NCBI GenBank assembly: GCA_946612185.1
Contig: CAMOEP010000044.1
Coordinates: forward strand, 1 to 11,802
Direction of reading: 5' to 3'
From: an uncultured Ruminococcus sp.
GTDB taxonomy: Bacteria > Bacillota > Clostridia > Oscillospirales > Ruminococcaceae
DNA length: 11,802 bases
Shown here: positions 1,036 through 11,703 of the stretch, in pieces
How positions within the stretch are numbered: the first letter of the stretch is position 1
How the letters are laid out: every line of letters begins with the position of its first letter
The notes under the pieces: model-generated
The model's input: the letters and a program-made list of their open reading frames with translations, nothing else
The model's database searches: none
Told to the model about the DNA's origin: nothing
Program-made: the position numbers and the translations under genes

Positions 1036-1060
1036 ATGTGGCAGTATGAGAAAAAACTAC
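1036..1060 (+). CDS. cotJC: cotJC segment 1 (codons 1-8)
   Basis: It encodes MWQYEKKL up to the left boundary of element A. The last 7 bases, AAACTAC (1054-1060), are repeated at 5168-5174, where segment 2 begins. Read without excision the frame continues PCR and stops. Confidence 0.9.
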
Positions 1061-4000
1061 CGTGTCGATGAGGTACATCACTCCCCTTGCACTTCCATTC
1101 TGGCACATTCAGACAAATCCTGCCCGGTTAAACCAATCTGCACCAGCGCACGGGTCAGTTCATCCGCAAGTTTTCGCTGCTCCTCGGCGGTGTGCTTTGG
1201 GATATGGCAGGTTATCTCTGCGCCGCTGAACCGGTTGCGGATCACTGCGGTAAACTCAGTTTCACTCTGGCTTTCGCTGATAATGTCGAAGTCCGTTTTT
1301 TCCCAGAATGACGAGGATTTTTGCAAATTATCCGACATATTTTCCACCCCCTTTATGTTAATTTTATGCACCGCCGGTGGAATTTTAAACATTTCCCTTG
1401 ACAAAAGTGGAAAAATGTGTTACAATACACTTGTTATATAACACCTGTTATTTAAGGAGATCACTATGCCGCCAACAGCAAAAATCACAAAGGATATGAT
1501 CGTGGATTCCGGGCTGAAAATCGTCCGGGAGGAGGGCGCTGACCGCCTGAACGTCAGACGGGTCGCCACCGAACTTGGCTGCTCCACCCAGCCGATAATG
1601 TACCACTTCAAGACCGTCGCTGACCTGAAAACCGCAGTATATAGCGCCGCAGACGCTTTCCACACCAGTTTTATCATGACTCCGGAAGAAACAGATTTTA
1701 ACCCATTTCTTGCCATTGGTCTGCGGTACATTCGGTTCGCCGCCGAGGAAATGAACCTGTTCCGCTTTCTGTTCCAGTCGGACAAGCTGGGGAGTTCAAG
1801 TATTGAGGGGCTGCTGGAATCCGGTGAAATATCGCAAATTATCGCCCCTCTTACCGCCGCCACCGGATTTTCAGAGGAGAAGGCACGGGAGGTTTTCAGC
1901 GTGCTTTTCATCTGCGTTCACGGCGCAGCAAGCCTGATCGCCAACAATTCGATCGGCTACGACCAGGACTATTTCGTGACTATGCTCACCCGCACGTTCA
2001 ACGGTCTGATCGCCGCCAGTCAGGAGGAAAATCATGAAACTATTTGAGAGAAACCAGGTCACTTTCGCCATAGTACTCATCGTGGTCTATGTGGTGGGAG
2101 TCAGCGCAATGCAAAGAATATCGGCAAATATCGGCATCGAGTACCTTGCAGAAATGGTTTTCTGCCTTGCACTTTCGGGGCTTGTGTTATTCTTCATCAG
2201 GCGCAATTCTCTGGCAAATTACCTGGGTCTGCGCAAGTCGGAAGTCCCCGCCGGAAAAATGCTCCTGTACATTCCCCTGCTGATAATTGGCTGTATTTCG
2301 CTGATTTTCGGCGTTAGTACGGGAACTTCCCTGACATCTGCGATCATTCACAGCGTAGAAATGATATGTGTGGGATTTCTGGAGGAGATAATTTTTCGTG
2401 GATTTCTTCTTCGAGGCATCGCCCTCCAAAACCTGAAAAGGGGCGCTATCATCGCCTCGATCACATTCGGCATCGGTCACATAGTCAACCTTTTAAATGG
2501 TCAGAACGTGTTCGATACTGTCTGTCAAATCATTTACGCAGTTGTGGTTGGATTTCTGCTAACTTTCATCTTTTTGCGCACCAGTAGTATAATTATGTGT
2601 GTGATTTTCCACATTTTAAACAATTGTGTTACATATTTTTCGACGGGTGAAGTCCTCATAAGCAAGCTTGGTGAAAGTACAGCAGAACTGGTTATGCTGG
2701 GACTGAGGCTGTGCATCGCCGCCGCTTACCTTTTCTATGTAAGTCGGCTGCCGTCGAGGGAACTTCCTGCAAGAAATTACTAAAGGAGAAATCATGGAAC
2801 ATATCATACAAGCGAATTCTGCCGATATATGGCGAATTTCTGAAATCATCGTCACAAACTACCGGATGAATTTCTACCAGTTTTTCCGTGATGATGAGTA
2901 CTACTTTGGCGAGCTGAACGTCCGTGACACCGCTGCCGAATTTGCTGAATGTCTTGGCGAAACCTTCGTTTACGACGACGGTATTATCAAAGGCGTGCTG
3001 AAAATGAACGGCAGCGAGATTGAGAAACTGTTTATTGAGCCGACTTTCCAAAACTGCGGAATCGGCAGAAAACTGCTGAATTTCGCCGTTTCCGAGCAAA
3101 GTGGAAAGTTCCTCTGGGTGCTGGAGTACAACGTCCGTGCCGCCGAATTCTACAAGCGGAACGGGTTTAGGTTCACCGGGGAGAAAATGGTGGAGGACGA
3201 GGTCGTTCCCCTACTGAAAATGGCTATAAATTGCGGAATTTCGTAACTGACAAATTGAAAATTCTTTTGGATTCCGGACAAGAGTTTTCAGACGGAAATG
3301 TTGCAGATTTTTTCTGACGATTTCTCAGGCAAATTGTGGTACAACGTGAGCGATGAGGTGCAGTTAAAACTGTACATCAGCGAGGTTTCCGGTTCATTCC
3401 CACCACTGAATTACGCAACAGAACGCTTACATCACTCTATCTGAGCGAAGTGCGCCACTGTGGAAGTTGCGAAAACTGCTTCCGTTATACCTTTAAAAAA
3501 TAGTTTGTCCAGATTTACGAAGAACACTTGTACACTTTCTAAACAGATTGCAATAAACTGTACATAATCGTTAATTAATATTAATCCCGTTCAGTTTTAT
3601 TTGATATAACCTGAAATATATTCAGACATTTCTTTTGCAAATCTTCCACAGATTTATAGAATTTTCCTGCAAAATCCACCGTAAAATATGTTAAGGGGGG
3701 ATTTTATGGAAAAATATTGCATTTATCTGCGAAAATCCAGGGCTGACGCAGAGGCAGAAGCCCGTGGGGAAGGAGAAACTCTCGCTCGTCACCGAAAAAT
3801 GCTCACAGAACTGGCTGCTAAAAACGGTTTGAATGTTGTGGAGATTTATGAGGAAATTGTCAGCGGCGATAGCATTTCCGCACGACCTCAAATGCAGGCG
3901 CTTTTGGCGAAAGTAAGCCAAAAAACGTTTGCTGGCGTGTTAGTTGCAGAGGTCGAGCGCCTTGCCCGTGGTGATACGATTGACCAGGGAATCGTCGCCC

Positions 4001-7000
4001 GGACGTTCAAGGAGTCATCCACAAAAATCATCACACCGACCAAAACTTACGACCCGGAGAACGAGTTTGACGAGGAATACTTCGAGTTTTCGCTGTTTAT
4101 GAGCCGTCGGGAGTACAAAACGATCAACCGGCGTATGCAGGCTGGGCGGCTTGCGTCCGTGAAAGAGGGCAACTACATCGGCACTTGCGCTCCTTACGGC
4201 TACCGAAAAATCAGTCCTGAACCCAAAATTCACACGCTTAAAATCGTTCCGGAGGAAGCTGAAGTTGTGCAGTTCATATTTCAGTCATTTCTGAACGGTC
4301 ACGGTGCAAAGTTCATTGCTGCAAAACTGAACAAAATGGGAATAAGTCCACGGAAAAGCAGAGTTTGGGAGTACACAAGTGTTCGGAAAATACTCTCAAA
4401 TCCCGTGTATTGCGGAAAAATAAGTTGGAAAACCAAGTCAAACGGAAACATCCTCTATCATGGACTGCATGAGCCGATAATCAGTGAGGATACTTTCAAC
4501 GCTGCAATAATAAAGCGAAATTCCGTTCCTGCACCAAGGGTGAAATCTGGCGTAAAATTGCGGAATTACTACCATAATGTTCTGATATGCCAAAACTGTG
4601 GTCACCAGATGAAGCGCCGAAAAGTAACAGGATCAGACCGTGAACATCTGCTGTGCATGAGCAGCCAATGCAGCGGAATTATTGTAAGTTCTCCAATGGA
4701 AATTGTTGATTTAGCGACATTATCAGCACTTCGATACTTTCTGCAATTCATTTCTGAACTAAAAACTGAAATACATTCAGAAAATGTTAATAAATCTGAA
4801 ATTCGTTATGCAGTTCAAGCAGAATTACAGAAATTAGACAATCAGCTTTCACGTTTACAGGATTTTTTAGAACAAGGAATTTATGATGTACAGTTATATT
4901 TAAAACGTTCAGAAATTGTCCAGCAACGGATAAATTCTCTGAAAATAACGCTGAATGAGATTGAGCAAAAAGAACCAAAGCAGTTTCCTAAAAGCATTTC
5001 CATAACGTTAAGAAACATTGTTGAGAATTTTCCACTGGCTTCACCTGATGAGAAAAATCGGCTATTTATTGCAGTTTTTCGAGAAATTCAGTACTCAAAA
5101 AGAAAACCGCACTCAGCAATCTCTCTGAATGCGGCTCTGCGCTGATGTACCTCATCGACACATCAGCAAACTACAGTACCCCGTCAATATCAAAAACTCC
5201 AACCCAAAGCTGGCGAAAATCATTATCAGCCAATTGGGAGGTCCGGGTGGCATAAAGGTATAGAAATCCACACCAAACGGAGGGAAAATTTCAGAAATTT
5301 CTGTACAACTTCTATTTAACGGTGTCTCAATCAACATTTTCTGTTCTCTTTATCCAAGTTGAAATTGCGTAGATCAATTGTCTGCTTGTTGGAGTTTTCC
5401 GCTTACCGAAGCCATTTTTACCGAATATTTCCTCTGAAAGTTCCATATCACGGTAGTCCCAGCCGTGCAGAATTGCGCGTGACTCAGCAGCCTGCAAATT
5501 ACTCAGCGATTTCTGAAATCTGTTAGCAGTATATTCCTGTGCCCTTCTAACACTGTCGTAACCGATCTGGTTCTCAAGAAGGCACTGATTGATGCTGTTT
5601 TTCAAGTAGTAATAACCTCTAAGATTTGGCGCTATGCCAAGATTTAATAAGCTTTGACTAATTCTTCTGTAAATAGTAGCCATGAAACTATCCTTTCTAA
5701 AACACAATATTTAATGCATATAATTACTTGAACTTTGCTGCATTTTTTTCAATTCTCTGTTCCATGCGATTATTGGATTTTGTAAACTGATTTCTGGCAT
5801 ATCTGAACACTTGTATATTTTTACACATCATGTTCAGTTTTTTCTATCTTGATTACCTCCTTACTTATCAGCAATTGAATATTTGATTGATTATTCAGAC
5901 AATAGCTGCCAATTGCGCTTCCTGCGGCAATCCTGCCACGTTCCGAAAGCATTTTCCGTTCAGCATCACTTAGTCTGTCGGTGCATATGCGGCTGCCGTC
6001 AATAACCGCATAACAGGCTATTTCAAGCGGATCATTCTTGCTCATAGTTGCCCCTCTCTGTAATTATTATACAGAATTACTATACAGCAATTTCTAAAAT
6101 TATTCCGCAAGACCTGAAATTTCACCGCACAAGTACCGCTGTTAGTGATAAATTCAGCGATACTTGTGCCGCAAAACTTTAGTTAAAAATAAAAAAAATA
6201 TACTCTACTGCTTGATTAGTATGTACAAATGTAGTATAATATATAGTAAAATTATAGTTTTCTGACACATTTAGCAAAACTCACTTAAACTAAGCTGAAA
6301 AGGAGTCATTTTTATGGGTAGATCTGCTGTTGCAAAGAAATCAATATTCACCGAACGACTGAAAAAAGCCCTGGATACAAGCGGAGTCTCGCAGGCTAAA
6401 CTGTGCGAAGAAATCGGTATGTCTCGTTCCGCATTAAGTGGCTACCTCCGTTCTGACTTCATTCCCAAACAGGACAGGCTTCAAAAAATGGCGCAAATCC
6501 TAAACGTTTCCCCTGATTGGCTTATGGGGAGTGACGATTCATCTGAGATAAAGATAGAAAAGAAGCCGGAAAAAGAAAAAGCAGTTGATAAATGTAAAGA
6601 AACTCCTAAGAAAACTGAAAAAGCTGCCAAAAACCTGAATTTTGTTCCGGTTATTGACGTTGACAAAGTTAATTCAGACTCTTTAAGTACTGTAAGTCAG
6701 AACCCTGACAAGTTCAATAAACGCCTTCCCTATTGTCTAACATTCACGGGAAATAGCCAGAATATCGTTGGTATCAGGCTAAATTCAGCAAATTCGCATA
6801 TAAATACCTGCATGATGCCGTATTTATTGCCTAACGACGTGATTTTTGTTGACACCAAAGCTAAACCTAAACCTGGCGATATGATCCTTGTGGATAATTT
6901 GATCGACCCTGGGGTATTTTGCATCTACGCATGCGAAGATAAGCCCTATTTTAGGTTTCCGGTGGACACTCCGATGGCTGAATTTATGCATAGCAGGTGC

Positions 7001-10000
7001 AAAATACTTGCAGTAGTGAAGGGCGTTTTCAGGGCTGTTCAGCCTGTTCCGTCAAAATACGACTGGGGTGAGCCTACAAATACCAACTCTATGGCAATCT
7101 CTCGAAACGCCGACGGAAGCGGTGAGTTAAGTGAGCCGCCAAGTAGTGAAACTCTCGAAACCATCGAAAAAATTAAGGATTATGATGGATATTGAGCTTG
7201 TTTCAAATCATAAAATATCGGCAGAGCAGAGCATTGCTCTGCCATTTTTATTAGTCCGAGGTGTCGAATTATGAAAACCGCCGCTGCTTACATTCGTGTT
7301 TCGACTGATGGTCAGACCGAATTTTCGCCGGCTTCCCAGCTAAAAGCAATCAAGCGCTATGCCCAGACAAATGGCTATATATTGCCGGAAAACCTTATTT
7401 TCTCAGACAATGGCATTAGCGGAAGAAGTGCAGAAAAGCGTCCAGGATTTCAGAAAATGATAGCCGCCGCCAGAACATCACCGCCACCATTCACAGTGGT
7501 GCTGATCTGGAAATTCAGCCGCTTCGCCAGATCTCGCCAGGACAGTATAATATACAAAACTCTACTGCGCAGACAGTGCGGAATCGACGTAATATCCGTC
7601 TCCGAGCAACTTTCAACAGACAACACTTCAGTCCTCATCGAGGCGCTGATTGAAGCTATGGACGAATACTATTCCCTGAATCTTGCGGAGGAAGTACGCC
7701 GTGGAATGCAGGAAAAATTCTCCCGTGGCGGAGTGGTCAGTCAGCCGCCATTCGGCTATTTTATGGGGAATAGTCGGTTTATTCCTGATACGGAGAACGC
7801 CCCGTTCGTTCGGTACATTTTCAGCGCATACCTCGGAGGAACGAGTATGACAGAAATTGCCCGAAAACTGAACAGTATGGGCGTTACCACCGTTCGTGGC
7901 AACCTTTTCGAGCGCCGGAGCATTGAATACATTCTCACGAATCCAGTCTATGCCGGGAAACTTCGCCGTAGTTTGAAAGGTCGTGACACGTCAGACAGGT
8001 TTCACCAAAATCCGCAGAATACAGCCATTTCTCAGGGTAATCATGAACCACTTGTTACCTGGGAGGACTTTTGCCGTGTACAGGAAATGTACAGAAATAA
8101 TCATCAAAAACTATGCAGTTCTCATAATTGTGCCGAGATTTCTGAACACTTGCTTAAAGGTCTTGTTCACTGCTCTGCTTGCGGAGCAACGCTTGTTTAC
8201 CAGAATAGTAACAGTTGTCTTCAATGTCATAATTACGCCAAAGGTAAATGCAGCATATCCCACGGAATAAGTGCCAAAAAGCTTGAAACAGCTGTAATTG
8301 ACCAAGTTTGCGCTGATTTCCCTGGAGTGATTGAAATTACTATTCCTATGATACACTTGCCGCTTGACAAACTGGTTGCAAAACAAGAGAAAATGCTTGA
8401 AAAAGCACATCTTGCGTACTGCTCAGGCGCAGACACAATTGAGGAATACACTTCCCACAAATCCCGAATAATGCAGAATATTGAGAATATTCGGAAAAGT
8501 GAAACAAACAACGATTTTTTTCAGAAAAAGCTGTACACAAGTATAGAAATACTTCGTTCCGATGTTGCAGATGTACCGTTAAAGCGCTTAATTCTACACA
8601 ATCTGATACAAGGTATAGTACTCTACAGACCAGGCAACCGGCTTGAAATAAACTATCTCCCATAGCCATTTGGTGGTCCCGATGGCGAGTTAGCTGCATC
8701 ACTTCGTTACCTGAACCAGCGATTTGCTATGCCATATCCGGAAGTAAAAGGCATACTCACTGATATAGGTACGGAAGAATCTGTACATTGAACTATAACT
8801 TACAGCCTTTACTGACACGTTAATTATAGCACGTTCAGAAACACTTGTCAATAGTTTCTGTCAAATCCATTTAAATTCGTCAGAATATTCAGAACTAAAT
8901 TCAGTTTTTAGTAACAATGTACACCAAAATGATAAGAAATCCTGTCGATTTAACTTAATATTGTATAAATATTTCAGAAATTGAATTTATTTTTAACTTT
9001 TCTGTACACAAAAATGTATTAACGGAGGGATAATTATGAGTTATTTCTGTATGTACCTGCGCAAATCCAGAGCGGACAGTGACACTGAAACTGTCGAAAG
9101 TGTTCTGGAAAGGCATTGCAAGATTTTGCAGGATTTCGCTATAAATAGCCTTGGAGAACTTATTCCGGAGGAGCGAATTTTCCGGGAAGTTGTTTCCGGC
9201 GAAAACATAGACGACCGTCCCAAAATGCTCGAATTATTGCGACTTATCCAGTCTCAGAACGTCACTGGCGTACTCGTTGTCGACCCACAGCGACTAAGCC
9301 GCGGCGATCTGTCTGACTGCGGAACGGTCATCAGATACTTCCGCTACACCTCCACACGCATCATCACCCCCGCCCGCACCTACGACCTGAGCGACCGCTT
9401 TGACCGGAAATTCTTTGAAATGGAGCTGATGCGTGGCAGTGACTACCTGGAATACGTCAAGGAAATTATGCTCAGAGGACGAATAGCTTCTGTGAACGAG
9501 GGAAATTTCATTGGCTCAGTGCCGCCATATGGCTATATGAAGCAAAAAATCGGTAAGTCGTTTACTCTCGTTCCATGCCAGGAAGCTGAAAACGTACAGC
9601 TTATGTACAGAATGTGGTGTGAGGAAGGAGCGAGTATTTCTGATATTTCTGTACAGCTTGACAATCTTGGTATCCGTCCTCGAAAATCACCAAAATGGAG
9701 CGTCGCATCAATTCGTGATATTCTGCGAAATCCTGTGTATACCGGCGTTATTCGTTGGAATTGCCGAAAAACTGTTAAGAAATTCCTGAACGGTCGCCTG
9801 GTCACATCTCGCCCAATTTCACCGGAAAACCTGTGGATTACCGCCCCTGGCAAGCATGAAGCTATCATATCCCACGAATTTTTTCAGAAATCTCTGAACC
9901 GTTTTGATAGTTCGCCCAAAAACTGTACATCTCACAATGCACGAAACCCATTTGCTGGTCTGATCCGCTGCGAATGTGGATATTCCATCGTTTATCAGCC

Positions 10001-10650
10001 CAGCAAAACCGGCTCGCCACGGCTTCACTGTACAAATCAGAAAAACTGCCACAACCGTTCAATTTTATATAATGAAGTAGAGTCTAATGTACTTAAATTA
10101 TTATCAATTATTTCAGTTTTATATAGTGGTTTATGTACAGAAATTTCTGAAATATGTTCACTAAATCTTCTAAGCGACCCGGAAATCCCTGCTAATTACA
10201 AAAATCTGCTGCTGAAATCAATTCTCAAAATCATAGTTATTAGGCGTAGTATAGCCGATTATCCTGGATATTCACTCGACATCACCTTTCGCTGACAGCC
10301 TATGTACCGATGAACTGGCACACGTCGAAATGATTTCCGCAATCCTCTACCAGCTTACCAAAGGACTGTCAATCGACGAAATCAAGGCAAGCGGCTTCGA
10401 CACCTATTTCGTTGACCACACAACCGGAATCTATCCCGTCGCCGCCTCCGGAACGCCGTTTACTGCGGCATATTTCCAGTCCAAGGGCGACATTATCACC
10501 GACCTGCATGAGAATATGGCGGCTGAGCAGAAGGCTCGAACCACCTATGACAACATTCTCCGGCTCGCTGACGACCCCGATGTCCGTGACCCGATCCGCT
10601 TCCTCAGACAGCGTGAAATTGTCCATTTTCAGCGCTTTGGCGACCGCTAA
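1036..10650 (+). CDS. cotJC: cotJC (manganese-catalase-like coat protein), split into four segments by three recombinase elements
   Basis: The start is ATG 1036 behind AAAGGAG. The frame reads MWQYEKKL and then enters element A, stopping at 1069-1071. The rest of the protein is found downstream in order: QYPVNIKNSNPKLAKIIISQ (5174-5233) then LGG; PDGELAASLRYLNQ through DIGTE (8678-8776); ELAHVEM through the stop at 10650. Joined at the shared cores these give 531 bp, or 176 residues plus stop, in one uninterrupted frame. The expected di-manganese ligands of the catalase fold fall at E35, E65, H68, E136 and H169. These match the spacing of E35, E66, H69, E148 and H181 in Lactobacillus plantarum Mn catalase, with one shorter loop. 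The gene cannot make CotJC as arranged here. An intact spliced frame with all ligands suggests that it is still functional after DNA excision. Confidence 0.92.
1054..1080 (+). repeat. attL of element A (core plus left arm)
   Basis: It consists of core AAACTAC (1054-1060) followed by arm 1062-1080, the reverse complement of 5143-5161. The arm also contains the stop codon of the small minus-strand gene (1078-1080). Confidence 0.88.
1078..1338 (-). CDS. Small hypothetical protein of element A
   Basis: The start is ATG 1338-1336, preferred over an ATG 22 codons upstream because a purine-rich GGGGGTGG ribosome site (about 1344-1351) precedes it. The 86-residue protein begins MSDNLQKSSSFWEKTDFDII and contains ITCHIPKHTAEEQRKLADEL. 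It is acidic to neutral, without membrane segments or a known motif I can name. Its stop codon lies inside the attL arm, so the gene fits the left end of the element tightly. It is divergent from the TetR operon. Small proteins beside large serine recombinases sometimes act as directionality factors (SprB of SP-beta is an example), which makes this a candidate on position alone. It could also be chance coding. Confidence 0.55.
   Translation of the reverse strand: MSDNLQKSSSFWEKTDFDIISESQSETEFTAVIRNRFSGAEITCHIPKHTAEEQRKLADELTRALVQIGLTGQDLSECARMEVQGE
1398..1443 (+). promoter_or_regulatory. Promoter and palindromic operator of the TetR operon
   Basis: TTGACA (1398-1403), a 17-bp spacer and TACAAT (1421-1426) form a strong sigma-A promoter. 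TGTTATATAACA (1432-1443) is a 12-bp perfect palindrome just after the -10 box, around the expected transcription start. It is a likely operator for the TetR-family protein encoded next, allowing autorepression. Confidence 0.78.
1466..2047 (+). CDS. TetR/AcrR-family transcriptional regulator
   Basis: This 193-residue protein starts at ATG 1466 after AAGGAG (about 1454-1459). Residues 7-50 form the TetR helix-turn-helix: ITKDMIVDSGLKIVREEGAD, then LNVRRVATELGCSTQPIMYH and FKTVADLKTAV. The remaining residues (about 55-190) are helical and variable, as in the ligand-binding half of the family. The length is typical. It probably represses its own operon through the palindrome at 1432-1443 until a small molecule binds. 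Its end overlaps the next gene by 14 bp, so the two are coupled. It is cargo of element A and has no evident role in recombination. Confidence 0.88.
   Translation: MPPTAKITKDMIVDSGLKIVREEGADRLNVRRVATELGCSTQPIMYHFKTVADLKTAVYSAADAFHTSFIMTPEETDFNPFLAIGLRYIRFAAEEMNLFRFLFQSDKLGSSSIEGLLESGEISQIIAPLTAATGFSEEKAREVFSVLFICVHGAASLIANNSIGYDQDYFVTMLTRTFNGLIAASQEENHETI
2034..2783 (+). CDS. CPBP-family intramembrane glutamic protease
   Basis: This 249-residue membrane protein starts at ATG 2034 behind CAGGAGGA and overlaps the TetR gene. It has several hydrophobic segments (about residues 10-25, 37-55, 77-96, 104-120, 140-155, 160-182, 186-200 and 215-240). The CPBP (Abi/CAAX protease-like) motifs are present in order: EEIIFRG with E117, E118 and R122, FGIGH with H149, and HILNN with H193 and N197. 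Such proteins cleave within or next to membrane segments; bacterial members are linked to bacteriocin self-immunity and signal processing. The substrate is unknown here. TetR control suggests an inducible protective function. Confidence 0.85.
   Translation: MKLFERNQVTFAIVLIVVYVVGVSAMQRISANIGIEYLAEMVFCLALSGLVLFFIRRNSLANYLGLRKSEVPAGKMLLYIPLLIIGCISLIFGVSTGTSLTSAIIHSVEMICVGFLEEIIFRGFLLRGIALQNLKRGAIIASITFGIGHIVNLLNGQNVFDTVCQIIYAVVVGFLLTFIFLRTSSIIMCVIFHILNNCVTYFSTGEVLISKLGESTAELVMLGLRLCIAAAYLFYVSRLPSRELPARNY
2794..3246 (+). CDS. GNAT-family N-acetyltransferase
   Basis: This 150-residue protein starts at ATG 2794 behind AAAGGAG and lies 10 bp after the CPBP gene, in the same operon. The acetyl-CoA-binding motif A is clear: EKLFIEPTFQNCGIGRKLLN, with the Q-x-x-G-x-G signature at residues 86-91. 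Motif B follows as EYNVRAAEFYKRNGF (residues 111-125). The length and layout fit a single-domain GNAT enzyme that transfers an acetyl group from acetyl-CoA to a small-molecule or protein amine. The substrate cannot be read from the sequence. It is the last gene of the element A cargo operon. Confidence 0.88.
   Translation: MEHIIQANSADIWRISEIIVTNYRMNFYQFFRDDEYYFGELNVRDTAAEFAECLGETFVYDDGIIKGVLKMNGSEIEKLFIEPTFQNCGIGRKLLNFAVSEQSGKFLWVLEYNVRAAEFYKRNGFRFTGEKMVEDEVVPLLKMAINCGIS
3247..3705. other. Non-coding stretch with degraded coding and an att-like palindrome
   Basis: No convincing gene lies between the acetyltransferase and recombinase 1. One + frame stays open from about 3270 to the TGA at 3452-3454 (with FQTEMLQIFSDDFSGKLWY) but has no start site, so it may be a gene remnant. 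At 3351-3384 a near-palindrome combines pieces that resemble both element A arms (CGATGAGGT and GTACATCAGCG). The last 200 bp are AT-rich and must hold the recombinase 1 promoter, but I see no clear -35/-10 pair. CTGAA-ATATA-TTCAG at about 3611-3625 is a short inverted repeat there. Confidence 0.45.
3706..5145 (+). CDS. Large serine recombinase 1 (element A)
   Basis: The start is ATG 3706, with AAGGGGGG (3692-3699) 6 bp upstream; an ATG at 3688 would put that ribosome site inside the gene. The 479-residue protein opens MEKYCIYLRKSRAD, giving nucleophile S11 with R9. RLARGD supplies R85 and R88. Residues 1-145 are the catalytic domain, and about 165-280 the recombinase DNA-binding domain (APYGYRK, NPVYCGKISW). 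A zinc ribbon uses C295, C298, C317 and C322, and a coiled coil spans about 360-425. This is a full-length large serine recombinase, the class that integrates and excises phages and the skin element. It reads into attR, with its stop 23 bp before the crossover. It is closer in pattern to recombinase 3 than to recombinase 2. The DNA becomes markedly more AT-rich from about 4680. Confidence 0.93.
   Translation: MEKYCIYLRKSRADAEAEARGEGETLARHRKMLTELAAKNGLNVVEIYEEIVSGDSISARPQMQALLAKVSQKTFAGVLVAEVERLARGDTIDQGIVARTFKESSTKIITPTKTYDPENEFDEEYFEFSLFMSRREYKTINRRMQAGRLASVKEGNYIGTCAPYGYRKISPEPKIHTLKIVPEEAEVVQFIFQSFLNGHGAKFIAAKLNKMGISPRKSRVWEYTSVRKILSNPVYCGKISWKTKSNGNILYHGLHEPIISEDTFNAAIIKRNSVPAPRVKSGVKLRNYYHNVLICQNCGHQMKRRKVTGSDREHLLCMSSQCSGIIVSSPMEIVDLATLSALRYFLQFISELKTEIHSENVNKSEIRYAVQAELQKLDNQLSRLQDFLEQGIYDVQLYLKRSEIVQQRINSLKITLNEIEQKEPKQFPKSISITLRNIVENFPLASPDEKNRLFIAVFREIQYSKRKPHSAISLNAALR
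5143..5174 (+). repeat. attR of element A (right arm plus core)
   Basis: The arm at 5143-5161 starts TGATGTACC and overlaps the TGA stop of recombinase 1. The core AAACTAC at 5168-5174 follows. The crossover is probably at the AA of 5168-5169, the exact centre of the rebuilt inverted repeat. Confidence 0.88.
5168..5244 (+). CDS. cotJC: cotJC segment 2 (codons 7-31)
   Basis: It starts with the AAACTAC core, then reads QYPVNIKNSN and PKLAKIIISQLGG, the conserved CotJC N-terminal region. It ends at the GGTCC core (5240-5244), the left boundary of element B. Beyond it the frame reads GGIKV and stops inside element B. Confidence 0.9.
5240..5263 (+). repeat. attL of element B
   Basis: It consists of core GGTCC (5240-5244) followed by an arm containing TGGC (5248-5251) and ATAG (5260-5263), which pair with the right-end arm. 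Immediately inside (5292-5303) is a separate 12-bp perfect palindrome, CAGAAATTTCTG. Confidence 0.75.
5288..5307. repeat. Dispersed palindromic motif, copy in element B
   Basis: This 20-bp sequence, with CAGAAATTTCTG (5292-5303) at its centre, occurs in exact reverse complement at 10134-10153 in recombinase 3. Partial copies occur elsewhere (see findings). Confidence 0.75.
5327..5683 (-). CDS. Spo0A C-terminal-domain-like DNA-binding protein
   Basis: The start is ATG 5683-5681, chosen because AAAGGA lies 7 bp upstream. The longer frame would begin with a TTG and swallow that site. The 118-residue protein matches the layout of the Spo0A effector domain and has no receiver domain. SLLNLGIAPNLRGYYYLKNS corresponds to the Spo0A region around IGVPAHIKGYLYLREAI. 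TANRFQKSLSNLQAAESRAI is at the place of the DNA-recognition helices, and IFGKNGFGKRKTPTSRQLIY corresponds to the region ending KAKPTNSEF. Spo0A is the master regulator of entry into sporulation and binds TGTCGAA boxes. A receiver-less copy could act constitutively or compete with host Spo0A. The assignment is by eye. Confidence 0.7.
   Translation of the reverse strand: MATIYRRISQSLLNLGIAPNLRGYYYLKNSINQCLLENQIGYDSVRRAQEYTANRFQKSLSNLQAAESRAILHGWDYRDMELSEEIFGKNGFGKRKTPTSRQLIYAISTWIKRTENVD
5821..6045 (-). CDS. Small hypothetical protein of element B
   Basis: The start is ATG 6045-6043, with GAGGGG (about 6050-6055) as ribosome site; the frame encodes 74 residues. It begins MSKNDPLEIACYAVIDGSRI and includes RLSDAERKMLSERGRIAAGS. 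It is soluble and of mixed charge, and I do not recognise a family. A tandem 13-bp repeat (6062-6087) lies just upstream of the ribosome site, which points to regulated expression. It is divergent from the XRE/S24 regulator. By size and position it is a candidate recombination directionality factor or antirepressor for element B, but the sequence itself does not show this. Confidence 0.6.
   Translation of the reverse strand: MSKNDPLEIACYAVIDGSRICTDRLSDAERKMLSERGRIAAGSAIGSYCLNNQSNIQLLISKEVIKIEKTEHDV
6062..6087. repeat. Tandem 13-bp repeat, probable operator
   Basis: AATTATTATACAG (6062-6074) is followed directly by AATTACTATACAG (6075-6087), 12 of 13 bases identical. It sits 17-42 bp upstream of the small minus-strand gene and contains a TATAAT-like sequence on that strand, so a bound regulator would overlap the promoter. 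Confidence 0.6.
6127..6169. repeat. Long inverted repeat between divergent genes of element B
   Basis: GCACAAGTA (6127-6135) pairs with TACTTGTGC (6161-6169), and CGCTG (6137-6141) pairs with CAGCG (6155-6159), with one mismatch between the blocks and a 13-base loop. No T-run follows on either strand, so a simple terminator is unlikely. It is more likely an operator pair or a structured leader. Confidence 0.65.
6212..6240 (+). promoter_or_regulatory. sigma-A promoter of the XRE/S24 regulator
   Basis: TTGATT (6212-6217), a 17-bp spacer and TATAAT (6235-6240) lie 73 bp before the regulator start. The spacer contains TACA-AA-TGTA, a short inverted repeat that could be part of an operator. Confidence 0.8.
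6314..7195 (+). CDS. Phage-repressor-like regulator: XRE helix-turn-helix plus S24-like domain
   Basis: This 293-residue protein starts at ATG 6314 behind AAAAGGAG. Residues 10-72 form an XRE/Cro-CI helix-turn-helix (SQAKLCEEIGMSRSALSGYL, then a DWLMGSDD end typical of the family). Residues 75-108 are a lysine- and glutamate-rich linker. Residues about 135-240 resemble the LexA/CI C-terminal domain (MMPYLLPNDVIFVDTKAKPK, then GDMILVDNL). At the place of the usual Ser nucleophile in the S-M-x-P motif it has C166 (TCMMP), and I see no clear catalytic Lys, so LexA-type self-cleavage is doubtful. It probably controls the divergent promoters and, by readthrough, recombinase 2. Confidence 0.82.
   Translation: MGRSAVAKKSIFTERLKKALDTSGVSQAKLCEEIGMSRSALSGYLRSDFIPKQDRLQKMAQILNVSPDWLMGSDDSSEIKIEKKPEKEKAVDKCKETPKKTEKAAKNLNFVPVIDVDKVNSDSLSTVSQNPDKFNKRLPYCLTFTGNSQNIVGIRLNSANSHINTCMMPYLLPNDVIFVDTKAKPKPGDMILVDNLIDPGVFCIYACEDKPYFRFPVDTPMAEFMHSRCKILAVVKGVFRAVQPVPSKYDWGEPTNTNSMAISRNADGSGELSEPPSSETLETIEKIKDYDGY
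7220..7250 (+). terminator. Intrinsic terminator between regulator and recombinase 2
   Basis: GGCAGAGCA (7220-7228) pairs perfectly with TGCTCTGCC (7235-7243) across a 6-base loop, followed by ATTTTTA. It ends only 20 bp before the recombinase 2 start codon, leaving no room for a promoter between them. Confidence 0.88.
7262..7268 (+). promoter_or_regulatory. TGTCGAA (0A-box-like) between ribosome site and start of recombinase 2
   Basis: TGTCGAA is the Spo0A box consensus. It lies between GAGGTG (7258-7263) and ATG 7271. A protein bound here would block transcription or initiation. Other copies in the window lie within coding DNA (1284-1290, 9092-9098, and reverse near 10394-10400), so chance is possible. 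Confidence 0.35.
7271..8665 (+). CDS. Large serine recombinase 2 (element B)
   Basis: This 464-residue protein starts at ATG 7271 behind GAGGTG. The catalytic domain (residues 1-145) has AYIRVSTDGQ with nucleophile S11 and R9, and IWKFSRFARSRQD with R84 and R87. The recombinase domain follows (PPFGYFMG, TEIARKLNSMGVTT, NPVYAGKLRR). The zinc ribbon uses C301, C304, C319 and C327 (HCSACGATLVYQ), and a coiled coil runs from about 366 to 412. The opening AYIRVSTDGQ differs from the YLRKSRAD of recombinases 1 and 3, so element B comes from another branch of the family. Its stop is 10 bp before the crossover. Transcription must come through the terminator at 7220-7250 or from inside the regulator gene. 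It presumably excises and integrates element B. Confidence 0.93.
   Translation: MKTAAAYIRVSTDGQTEFSPASQLKAIKRYAQTNGYILPENLIFSDNGISGRSAEKRPGFQKMIAAARTSPPPFTVVLIWKFSRFARSRQDSIIYKTLLRRQCGIDVISVSEQLSTDNTSVLIEALIEAMDEYYSLNLAEEVRRGMQEKFSRGGVVSQPPFGYFMGNSRFIPDTENAPFVRYIFSAYLGGTSMTEIARKLNSMGVTTVRGNLFERRSIEYILTNPVYAGKLRRSLKGRDTSDRFHQNPQNTAISQGNHEPLVTWEDFCRVQEMYRNNHQKLCSSHNCAEISEHLLKGLVHCSACGATLVYQNSNSCLQCHNYAKGKCSISHGISAKKLETAVIDQVCADFPGVIEITIPMIHLPLDKLVAKQEKMLEKAHLAYCSGADTIEEYTSHKSRIMQNIENIRKSETNNDFFQKKLYTSIEILRSDVADVPLKRLILHNLIQGIVLYRPGNRLEINYLP
8653..8679 (+). repeat. attR of element B
   Basis: The arm at 8653-8668 overlaps the stop codon of recombinase 2 (8663-8665). The core GGTCC follows at 8675-8679, where the cotJC frame resumes. 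Confidence 0.75.
8675..8779 (+). CDS. cotJC: cotJC segment 3 (codons 31-65)
   Basis: It opens with the GGTCC core and reads PDGELAASLRYLNQRFAMPY and then PEVKGILTDIGTE. It holds ligand E35 (in GELAAS) and ends at GAA (8777-8779), the codon of ligand E65, which is shared with 10312-10314. The frame then reads SVH and stops inside element C. Confidence 0.9.
8777..8790 (+). repeat. attL of element C
   Basis: Core GAA (8777-8779) is followed by a left arm containing GTACAT (8783-8788), the partner of ATGTAC at the other end. Confidence 0.65.
8780..9035. other. Leader of recombinase 3
   Basis: This AT-rich stretch has no gene. CAGAAAC (8837-8843) pairs with GTTTCTG (8855-8861) over an 11-base loop. 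GAATATT (8884-8890) resembles a sigma-E -35 but no -10 follows at the right distance. GTATAAAT (about 8963-8970) could be a -10 without a good -35. I cannot assign a promoter. Confidence 0.4.
9036..10295 (+). CDS. Large serine recombinase 3 (element C), short form without coiled coil
   Basis: This 419-residue protein starts at ATG 9036 behind GGAGGG (9024-9029). The catalytic domain has MYLRKSRAD with S11 and R9, and PQRLSRGD with R86 and R89. The recombinase domain includes PPYGYMKQK and RNPVYTGVIRW. The zinc ribbon is C312, C314, C332 and C338, with an unusual C-x-C first pair. It shares many blocks with recombinase 1 (YLRKSRAD, RIITP, TYD, RIASVNEGNFIG), so the two are relatives. It is about 60 residues shorter, and I see no charged coiled coil between the zinc ribbon and the C-terminus. 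Family members use that segment to enforce direction. It is the only gene of element C; its stop is 17 bp before the crossover. Confidence 0.92.
   Translation: MSYFCMYLRKSRADSDTETVESVLERHCKILQDFAINSLGELIPEERIFREVVSGENIDDRPKMLELLRLIQSQNVTGVLVVDPQRLSRGDLSDCGTVIRYFRYTSTRIITPARTYDLSDRFDRKFFEMELMRGSDYLEYVKEIMLRGRIASVNEGNFIGSVPPYGYMKQKIGKSFTLVPCQEAENVQLMYRMWCEEGASISDISVQLDNLGIRPRKSPKWSVASIRDILRNPVYTGVIRWNCRKTVKKFLNGRLVTSRPISPENLWITAPGKHEAIISHEFFQKSLNRFDSSPKNCTSHNARNPFAGLIRCECGYSIVYQPSKTGSPRLHCTNQKNCHNRSILYNEVESNVLKLLSIISVLYSGLCTEISEICSLNLLSDPEIPANYKNLLLKSILKIIVIRRSIADYPGYSLDITFR
10134..10153. repeat. Dispersed palindromic motif, copy inside recombinase 3
   Basis: It is the exact reverse complement of 5288-5307. 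Here it lies in coding sequence and encodes part of LCTEISEI. The palindrome CAGAAATTTCTG is at 10138-10149. Confidence 0.75.
10300..10314 (+). repeat. attR of element C
   Basis: An arm containing ATGTAC (10302-10307) is followed by core GAA (10312-10314), where cotJC resumes at ligand codon E65. The arm begins 5 bp after the recombinase 3 stop. Confidence 0.65.
10312..10650 (+). CDS. cotJC: cotJC segment 4 (codons 65-176 and stop)
   Basis: It reads ELAHVEMISAILYQLTKGLS at the start, then DTYFVDHTTGIYPVAASG, AAEQKARTTYDNILRLADDP and REIVHFQRFGDR. It carries ligands E65, H68, E136 and H169. The first internal ATG (10330) could open a 106-residue frame, but it has no ribosome site and would lack E65 and H68, so I do not treat it as a gene start. 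Confidence 0.92.
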   Translation, partial: ELAHVEMISAILYQLTKGLSIDEIKASGFDTYFVDHTTGIYPVAASGTPFTAAYFQSKGDIITDLHENMAAEQKARTTYDNILRLADDPDVRDPIRFLRQREIVHFQRFGDR

Positions 10651-10945: not shown

Positions 10946-10998
10946 CTTAGTAGTAATTCAATGTATACTCAGAATTAATACTAAAGGAGATATTGACC

Positions 10999-11703
10999 AT
11001 GTGCAAGGTATATGCTTATTGTAGAGTATCAACTCAGAAACAGGAACTTCAAAGGCAGATAGACAATATCAGCAAAGTGTATTCAGATGCTATATTCTAC
11101 TCAGATAAGTTCACAGGAGCAACAACAGACCGCCCTAACTGGAATAAGCTTTACAAGATATTAAAGGCAGGTGATACCATTGTTTTTGATTCAGTATCAC
11201 GAATGAGCAGAAATGCAGCAGAGGGCGCAAGCCTTTATGAAGAACTATACAACAGAGGAATCAATCTTGTATTCCTGAATGAGCCTTACTGCAATACAGA
11301 TACTTACAGGCAGTCAGCACAGCAGAGCATACCCACAACAGGAAATGAAATTGCAGACATTTATATTGAAGCTACAAACAAGGTTATCATGATACTTGCG
11401 AAACGTCAGATAGAAATTGCATTTGAGCAAGCCGAAAAAGAACGCCTTGACATTTGCAAGAGAGTTAAAGACGGTATGCAGGCTAAGAAAAAGAAAGCCG
11501 CTGAAATGGGTATAACGGTTCATTATGGTGCAAAATTGGGCGTTAAGCTGACAACAAAAAAGAGTATCAGTGCAAAGGAAATAATCTTGAAGCATAGCAA
11601 GGACTTTGGCGGTACTCTATCAGATGCAGAGTGTATGCAGCTTGCAGAAGTTTCAAGGAATACTTTCTACAAGTACAAAGCGGAATTAAAGAATCAATTC
11701 TAA
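10999..11703 (+). CDS. Small serine recombinase (resolvase/invertase type)
   Basis: The start is ATG 10999, 9 bp after AAGGAG (10984-10989). A TTG at 10993 would be too close to that site. The 234-residue protein begins MCKVYAYCRVSTQKQELQRQ, with nucleophile S11 and R9, and has FDSVSRMSRNAAEG supplying the active-site arginines. A long helix with basic residues (about 130-165) precedes a C-terminal helix-turn-helix around CMQLAEVSRNTFYKYKAEL. There is no recombinase domain or zinc ribbon, so it belongs to the small resolvase/invertase group. Codon use is much more AT-rich than cotJ or thrH (many AGA, ATA and ACA codons), a sign of separate acquisition. It is outside the cotJC segments and is not needed to explain them. 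Confidence 0.9.
   Translation: MCKVYAYCRVSTQKQELQRQIDNISKVYSDAIFYSDKFTGATTDRPNWNKLYKILKAGDTIVFDSVSRMSRNAAEGASLYEELYNRGINLVFLNEPYCNTDTYRQSAQQSIPTTGNEIADIYIEATNKVIMILAKRQIEIAFEQAEKERLDICKRVKDGMQAKKKKAAEMGITVHYGAKLGVKLTTKKSISAKEIILKHSKDFGGTLSDAECMQLAEVSRNTFYKYKAELKNQF

Follow-up and report, generated by a model that had tools for sequence, protein, structure and literature searches.

Contig CAMOEP010000044.1 of an uncultured Ruminococcus sp. (assembly GCA_946612185.1), analyzed here over its whole length of 11,802 nt and called the window below, carries the sporulation gene cotJC in four pieces separated by three side-by-side elements (E1, E2 and E3), each encoding its own large serine recombinase. 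From the homology of the joined pieces to intact genes, the constraint on split genes and the grouping of the recombinases by insertion site, we conclude that cotJC is probably rebuilt by excision of the three elements, E3 being the weakest link. CotJ proteins have an established role in sporulation. The window is a complete contig (G000:C44; G, C and L numbers are our handles for genomes, contigs and loci) of a draft assembly of 2.6 Mb in 433 contigs that is 73.7% complete, and all three matches in this assembly to the joined protein or the consensus lie on it. The cotJ genes and the elements are arranged as follows, with attL and attR denoting the left and right attachment (att) sites:

528-788, + strand: cotJA (Pfam CotJA PF11007, E 5e-16)
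785-1033, + strand: cotJB, directly 5' of cotJC exon 1 (Pfam CotJB PF12652, E 4.5e-30)
1036-1060, + strand: cotJC exon 1 (MWQYEKKL); E1 attL core AAACTAC at 1054-1060
1054-5167, + strand: element E1 (site A, codon 7), 4114 bp; core AAACTAC at 1054 and 5168
5168-5244, + strand: cotJC exon 2 (codons 7-31); E2 attL core GGTCC at 5240-5244
5240-8674, + strand: element E2 (site B, codons 30-32), 3435 bp; core GGTCC at 5240 and 8675
8672-8779, + strand: cotJC exon 3 (codons 30-65); E3 attL core GAA at 8777-8779
8777-10311, + strand: element E3 (site C2, codon 65), 1535 bp, with one gene; core GAA at 8777 and 10312
10306-10650, + strand: cotJC exon 4 (codons 63-176 and stop; PF05067, E 1.2e-27); E3 attR core GAA at 10312-10314

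The four reading stretches (1036-1059, 5168-5251, 8672-8788 and 10306-10650) follow the order of cotJC on one strand, and their ends run a few codons past the cores. The three recombinase genes are also on the + strand, each with its 3' end at its attR. Removal of the 4114 bp between the AAACTAC copies, the 3435 bp between the GGTCC copies and the 1535 bp of E3 leaves an open frame of 531 bp encoding 176 residues. These lengths and this frame were proposed in an earlier sequence-only reading of the window and hold, with one change at the third core. Two short repeats lying 8 bp apart, GTAC (8769/10304) and GAA (8777/10312), give the same 1535 bp; GTAC was dropped in favor of the GAA of codon 65, which is only 3 bp long, because GAA is common to the third junction in other genomes split there (e.g. 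G004, G022 and G025) and because the GAA join restores GTEELAH, invariant in 31 intact cotJC genes, whereas the GTAC join gives GTDELAH. The open frame itself was set aside as proof of the joins: 7.9% of random joins with right edges moved by up to 30 nt are also open, which makes it weak evidence. Homology provides the strong evidence, as far as sequence comparison goes. Intact cotJC genes of the same genus align with the joined protein over its full length and through all joins, at up to 94% identity (G104, G065 and G013); this alignment was the check that the sequence-only reading had proposed, and it confirms that the four stretches encode successive parts of CotJC. The joined protein also matches solved Mn catalases (6j42, E 1e-27; 1jku), and PF05067 matches exons 3 and 4. 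E35, E65, H68, E136 and H169, which we take to be the metal ligands, are invariant in the 31 intact genes and align with Glu and His residues of 6j42.

Insertion sites and recombinase clades in the genus

We surveyed 125 genomes of the genus, including the window's own (G000). The joined protein had a match in 103, and 102 were examined after exclusion of G061, which has a distant paralogue alone. After hand correction, cotJC is intact in 31 of them, split in 70 and undecided in one, and five fixed sites account for the interruptions: A at codon 7, B in GGPDGE (codons 30-32), C1 and C2 in IGTEELAH (C2 at codon 65, the invariant Glu), and D in AAEQKAR. Sites B, C1, C2 and D lie in highly conserved stretches, some positions of which align with Glu and His residues of Mn catalases; for recombinases aiming at conserved host DNA, such a choice of site is expected. 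Forty-three of the split genes are interrupted once, 24 twice and three three times. Among the triples, all four exons were seen in G000, while G036 and G093 are assigned from their outer exons because neither yielded the exon between B and C1.

Before correction, the script had assigned no site to 33 genomes, one site to 42, two to 23 and three to four (by site, uncorrected: A 32, B 26, C1 21, C2 18 and D 3). By hand, G119 was rejected as a triple, its junction showing A and C1 but not C2; G049 gained C2 by its recombinase; and G023, broken at a contig edge, was counted neither way. The C1 break of G095 falls at contig ends and was left out of the count, G073 was counted as C1 only and may hold both C1 and C2, and three fragments resembling extra copies (L116, L138 and L139) were excluded from the survey. 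As a separate observation, the contigs of L050 and L051 (G095) and of L118 (G023) stop exactly at att cores, which might happen in the assembly of a sample that contained both joined and interrupted forms.

The position of cotJB gives an independent view of site A. It lies 3-13 nt upstream of all 58 pieces that start at residue 1 and of none of the 28 that start at residues 3-7 (L138 and L139 are among the pieces in this count), so the A breaks are real gene ends rather than poor alignments. For the 28 pieces, cotJB is 3.1 kb away in G105 and 5.7 kb away in G014, and was not found in the fetched stretch for the other 26.

Split genes carry the marks of purifying selection. For 68 of the 70 split genomes, 108 exons with a total of 9,533 codons are free of stops; the count used exon ends set by site rather than by score, and ungapped alignments, in which a frameshift would appear as a lost piece. 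Stops in some database matches were taken to lie where the match overruns the exon. The median ratio of nonsynonymous to synonymous substitution rates (dN/dS) is 0.026 for 52 of 55 split genes (three, including that of G000, were saturated) vs 0.033 for the 31 intact genes (Mann-Whitney p = 0.17). These values come from nearest pairs by the Nei-Gojobori method (NG86), with codons near all junctions removed and genes with fewer than 90 usable codons excluded beforehand. By these measures, split cotJC is as constrained as intact cotJC, within the limits set by dS values near 1.

For the recombinases, we collected open reading frames (ORFs) of at least 380 residues that matched the window's three at E 1e-8 and ended at most 400 nt from an exon end, a procedure that would miss recombinases unlike the queries. 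The resulting 58, one of which (L116) lies beside an extra-copy fragment, were combined with the window's three. In a tree of the 61 sequences, made by a quick method with support from the Shimodaira-Hasegawa-like approximate likelihood ratio test (SH-aLRT) only, the recombinases of each site form a single clade (A 13, B 19, C1 12, C2 14 and D 3; support 98-100). The site labels require four changes on this tree, the minimum for five labels, and none of 200 shuffles was as low; two genomes (G073 and G041) had been relabelled from C1 to C2 before the tree was made, on junction sequence but after the similarity of their recombinases was also known. E1 falls in clade A, E2 in B and E3 in C2. All three window recombinases contain the Resolvase and Recombinase domains (Pfam) and keep 90-91% of the clade-invariant columns, compared with 15-28% of the variable ones; the zinc ribbon PF13408 is matched by those of E2 and E3, and the E1 recombinase has no match to it at E 0.001. 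They are also the only PF07508 matches in the 2.6-Mb assembly of G000. The junctions and the site-specific clades thus give good support to the earlier view of three separate serine-recombinase elements, each with its own attachment site.

The three elements

The main genes of the elements are as follows:

1081-1338, - strand: small ORF (86 residues), candidate recombination directionality factor of E1, found with an iterated hidden Markov model (HMM) family
3688-5145, + strand: E1 large serine recombinase (485 residues), 3' end at attR (Pfam Resolvase and Recombinase; clade A)
5330-5683, - strand: stand-alone Spo0A DNA-binding (effector) domain protein (Pfam Spo0A_C PF08769, E 7e-11; 1lq1 Spo0A, E 0.004)
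5824-6045, - strand: small ORF (74 residues), candidate directionality factor of E2, found with an HMM of the small ORF common to B elements
6314-7195, + strand: CI/XRE-like phage repressor (Pfam HTH_3, 1e-12; PHROGs transcriptional repressor families)
7271-8665, + strand: E2 large serine recombinase (464 residues), 3' end at attR (Pfam Resolvase, Recombinase and zinc ribbon; clade B, long end branch)
9036-10295, + strand: E3 large serine recombinase (419 residues) without the coiled-coil segment (clade C2, long end branch)

E1 has the clearest ends. A perfect 19-bp inverted repeat (1062-1080 and 5143-5161) lies at the two ends of the element, as expected of a phage attachment site (attP), and its arms match at 23 of 35 positions vs 16 in the bacterial attachment site (attB) control; the arms of E2 (13 vs 14 matches) and E3 (15 vs 13) are not clearly above this control. 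The small ORF of E1 has no Pfam match. Its family gave 33 matches in 11,800 ORFs covering part of the fetched loci, 13 of them in genomes with an A insertion and 14 in viral loci, and this recurrence in A-type elements and in viral loci of A and C2 kinds makes it a candidate directionality factor. The remaining cargo of E1 comprises a TetR protein, a CPBP/Rce1-like protease and a GNAT protein (Pfam). The A-type element of L066 (G105) has the opposite orientation relative to cotJC, and carries the same small ORF family and, by eye, a TetR-like ORF.

The attL arm of E2 is the best of 23,556 window positions when scored against the arms of 13 other B elements. Its small ORF is the sole window ORF above the inclusion threshold of the B-family HMM (E 6.5e-5 among window ORFs) and was missed by the B-family search of a larger ORF set at E 1e-3; we regard it as a candidate directionality factor. 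Homologues of the Spo0A effector domain were also found in the fetched flanks of G052, G016, G003, G044 and G051. E3 contains, besides its recombinase, two shorter ORFs that overlap the recombinase gene on the other strand, and its ORF list includes no partner resembling a directionality factor.

These data suggest the following scheme. Three phage-descended elements, each with its own large serine recombinase, would have integrated at three attachment sites in cotJC, each recombinase clade having its own attB. The host would tolerate them because only sporulating mother cells require CotJC; in these cells, recombination at the short cores would remove the elements and join the four exons into one 176-residue frame. 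The conserved small ORFs of E1 and E2 would serve as the directionality factors of these two elements; E3, having neither coiled coil nor partner gene, would excise without one. Excision in this organism and its timing to sporulation are what we infer from these features.

Excision weighed against other explanations

Rebuilding by three excisions, as the sequence-only reading had it, agrees with the preservation of the exons, with purifying selection and with the free attP-like sites in related phages described below; it fits less well at E3, which has lost features that its relatives keep. The strongest rival is a dead cotJC in this strain: one element at least, E3, could no longer leave, and the gene would be a relic with decaying elements. 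We consider this unlikely. Several observations count against excision, and those on the coiled coil, partner gene and att arms of E3, on the attR arm of E2 and on SpoIVA also favor a dead gene. First, the E3 recombinase shows gaps of 69 and 10 columns at the coiled coil, which is filled in all 11 other aligned C2 recombinases, and the element has no partner gene. In the available part of PMC10754689, deletion of the coiled coil left the LI integrase with a low activity that was equal on the two site pairs, and killed the phiC31 integrase. Second, att arms have drifted. Those of E3 are far from other C2 elements (attL rank 194 and attR rank 1889 of 23,556); the attR arm of E2 ranks 26th of 23,556 against 21 other B elements and scores below all 21; and that of E1 ranks 9th of 23,556 against 27 other A elements and has evidently diverged, since it scores below all but one of them. 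Third, the terminal branches of the E2 and E3 recombinases are long (0.87 and 0.9), and the tree program flagged their placement as unsure. Fourth, only six same-site split pairs have dS below 0.9 (dN 0 to 0.024), and some insertions may be recent, so that the selection may reflect earlier history. At last, SpoIVA, present in 121 of the 125 genus genomes, was not found in the 73.7% complete assembly of G000; its absence may reflect incompleteness, and the same genome has two long Spo0A-type genes (G000:C334 and G000:C197).

Against a dead gene stand the stop-free exons of the window, the identity of up to 94% between the joined frame and intact genes, and the genus-wide constraint on split genes. 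The E3 recombinase itself has an uninterrupted frame of 419 codons, in which 133 of 147 clade-invariant columns are kept vs 11 of 74 variable ones, a pattern that does not look like free decay. Its sequence allows two readings, that it excises without a directionality factor or that it is dead. The E1 and E2 recombinases have no such gap. Gaps at the matching C-terminal place occur in L050 (G095, clade B; 84 columns) and L129 (G006, clade C1; 68 columns), with residues inspected for E3 only, so the coiled coil may have been lost in three site clades. A simple rule by which loss of the coiled coil goes with loss of the factor is disfavored, because G095 still has the B-type small ORF.

A second rival takes the elements for ordinary prophages or islands whose departure is random or induced, with the rebuilding of cotJC a by-product rather than an event timed to sporulation. 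We find this improbable, more so than a dead gene. Related elements are indeed phage-sized, at ~33-37 kb by exon positions (G022, G059, G106 and G041); in G022, a single contig holds the three cotJC exons, at 53.4, 86.8 and 122.3 kb, giving inserts of ~33 and 35 kb. Relatives also occur in viral contigs of IMG/VR, where the recombinases of L261 (a 35,192-bp contig) and L262 are 100% and 99% identical to the B recombinase of G022. Both contigs have the two arms joined, by eye, as a free attP directly behind the recombinase, and so do the C2 arms of L342, whose recombinase is 79% identical to the C2 recombinase of G022. No cotJC exon was present in the fetched stretches of the viral contigs with free attP-like sites, and a cotJC exon (at least 50% identity) was found in 33 of the 240 viral loci kept, these being the best 80 each of 153, 234 and 186 from three scans. 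In the A-type viral flanks inspected, the AAACTAC core was absent, so A-type phages may use other sites. The viral contigs thus show integrated and free forms of relatives, not excision in the window's organism.

Three further points favor random or induced departure: E2 has retained a CI-like repressor, the joined yabG of the yin element was present at all time points according to the accessible part of PMC10747680, and a consensus scan for sigma-E-like promoters was not above chance (at the best score, one seen vs 0.65 expected from mononucleotide shuffles). The last result also weighs against sporulation-timed excision; the best site (7187-7216, + strand) matches 13 of 15 consensus positions and lies 55 bp upstream of the E2 recombinase, at chance level overall. 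On the other side, the window ORFs listed or searched with Pfam include no phage structural gene, a Spo0A effector domain is encoded in E2, and the excerpted text of PMC5595907 describes excision of earlier sporulation elements as sporulation-specific.

It is extremely unlikely that the cotJC pieces act as separate, unjoined polypeptides: all pieces are open and exon 4 has an in-frame ATG at 10330, but exon 1 encodes eight residues only, exon 2 lacks a start codon at its upstream end, and the boundaries fall at recombinase cores inside conserved motifs. An assembly chimera is just as improbable, for although the window is a single contig from a draft of 433, the same three sites are occupied by the same three recombinase clades in independent assemblies.

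Spread beyond the genus and known systems

Interruption of cotJC is probably not confined to the genus. In an order sample of 107 genomes, from 57 of the 67 genera with a match, 83 genomes besides G000 had a cotJC-type match and five more had only distant paralogues or weak matches. The match is full length in 53 of the 83 and partial in 30, with ends near B, C or D (G138 is doubtful, and contig edges are possible among the partials). Seven of the 30 partial genomes were fetched and their recombinases compared by best phmmer match; the others stand as matches, not as checked junctions. A recombinase of the right clade lies beside both breaks in G154 and G165. In G149, a D recombinase adjoins the last exon, and a C1 match lies at a distance of 1.9 kb from the first; G145 has a B recombinase, and the best match at its C2 break is A, the sister clade; in G228 and G194, one side matches D and the C side matches A; and G215 has a C1 recombinase at just one side. 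In the one-contig genome of G215 (G215:C1; L516 and L517), the two cotJC pieces lie ~675 kb apart, a distance over which simple excision could hardly join them.

One-element cases are known from skin, SP-beta/spsM and gin/gerE (PMC5595907) and from yin/yabG (PMC10747680). As in skin (sigK), SP-beta (spsM), gin (gerE) and yin (yabG), each cotJC element encodes a serine recombinase, has a short core at both ends and interrupts a sporulation gene whose frame is restored by recombination at the cores, there by excision and here as deduced from sequence alone. Their att sites have inverted repeats, which are clear here in E1 only. Unlike these systems, which in the available text of both papers have one element per gene, cotJC holds three side by side, and its few sites are reused repeatedly across the genus and the order. 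Among the open-licence literature matches listed, no title or opening abstract mentions an interrupted cotJC or several elements in one sporulation gene.

The closest parallel for several elements in one gene is found in heterocyst-forming cyanobacteria. The available part of PMC4874684 reports several elements in 10 of 87 interrupted genes, with the most, four, in nifD of Rivularia PCC 7116, and the sequence-only reading, which knew of no described gene with three such elements, needs correction on this point. Like the heterocyst elements of nifD, nifH and hupL, those of cotJC are several independent recombinase elements in one gene. Heterocyst elements are excised in a specialised cell type, as proposed here, and many of their recombinases group by insertion site, as do those of cotJC; unlike those of cotJC, they occur in another phylum and another cell type and use tyrosine as well as serine recombinases. 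The surprising part is that five recombinase clades have used the same gene repeatedly, in the genus and beyond.

Two components of the elements also have counterparts. The E2 protein resembles the truncated Spo0A of human-gut phages, as described in the accessible part of PMC10294663, in being an effector domain without a receiver domain; unlike the phage copies described there, it sits in the very element that interrupts a sporulation gene. The E3 recombinase resembles the coiled-coil deletion mutants of the LI and phiC31 integrases in lacking the same segment, its loss being natural.

A putative exon of about three codons was found in G006, whose C1 insertion follows codon 62 and whose C2 insertion precedes codon 65. 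A search with a pattern of the sequence expected between them gave one exact match (0 mismatches; none for the control pattern) at G006:C31:9866-9895 (L257), with a C1-like arm before it and a C2-like arm behind it, both by eye. The match is 24 bases from the end of the fetched stretch of 1,554 bases, in which no recombinase was found, and the cotJC pieces of G006 lie on three contigs; among the three genomes given, the pattern was found in G006 and not in G073 or G000.

A broader proposal can be made only tentatively, with somewhat less than even confidence: cotJC may be a shared landing gene with five recombinase-specific sites in Oscillospirales-like gut bacteria, whose coat would need multi-step DNA splicing, with up to three elements per gene, exons down to about three codons (G006), and single-gene elements without a coiled coil, like E3, that would leave without a directionality factor and be, in effect, small self-excising DNA introns. 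If true, sporulation-linked DNA rearrangement would go from single cases (sigK, spsM, gerE and yabG) to a recurrent and countable feature of gut bacteria, one 530-bp gene having five fixed entry points that are occupied in 70 of the 102 examined genomes of the genus. Such genes would supply natural sets of site-specific recombinases and att pairs, allow a direct test of whether excision order matters, and offer natural recombinases without a coiled coil for testing how serine integrases are held in one direction. It would also suggest that cotJC pieces annotated beside integrases may be exons of a split host gene. In the window itself, a fourth serine recombinase, of the small resolvase type (Pfam), lies just 3' of cotJC at 10993-11703 on the + strand.
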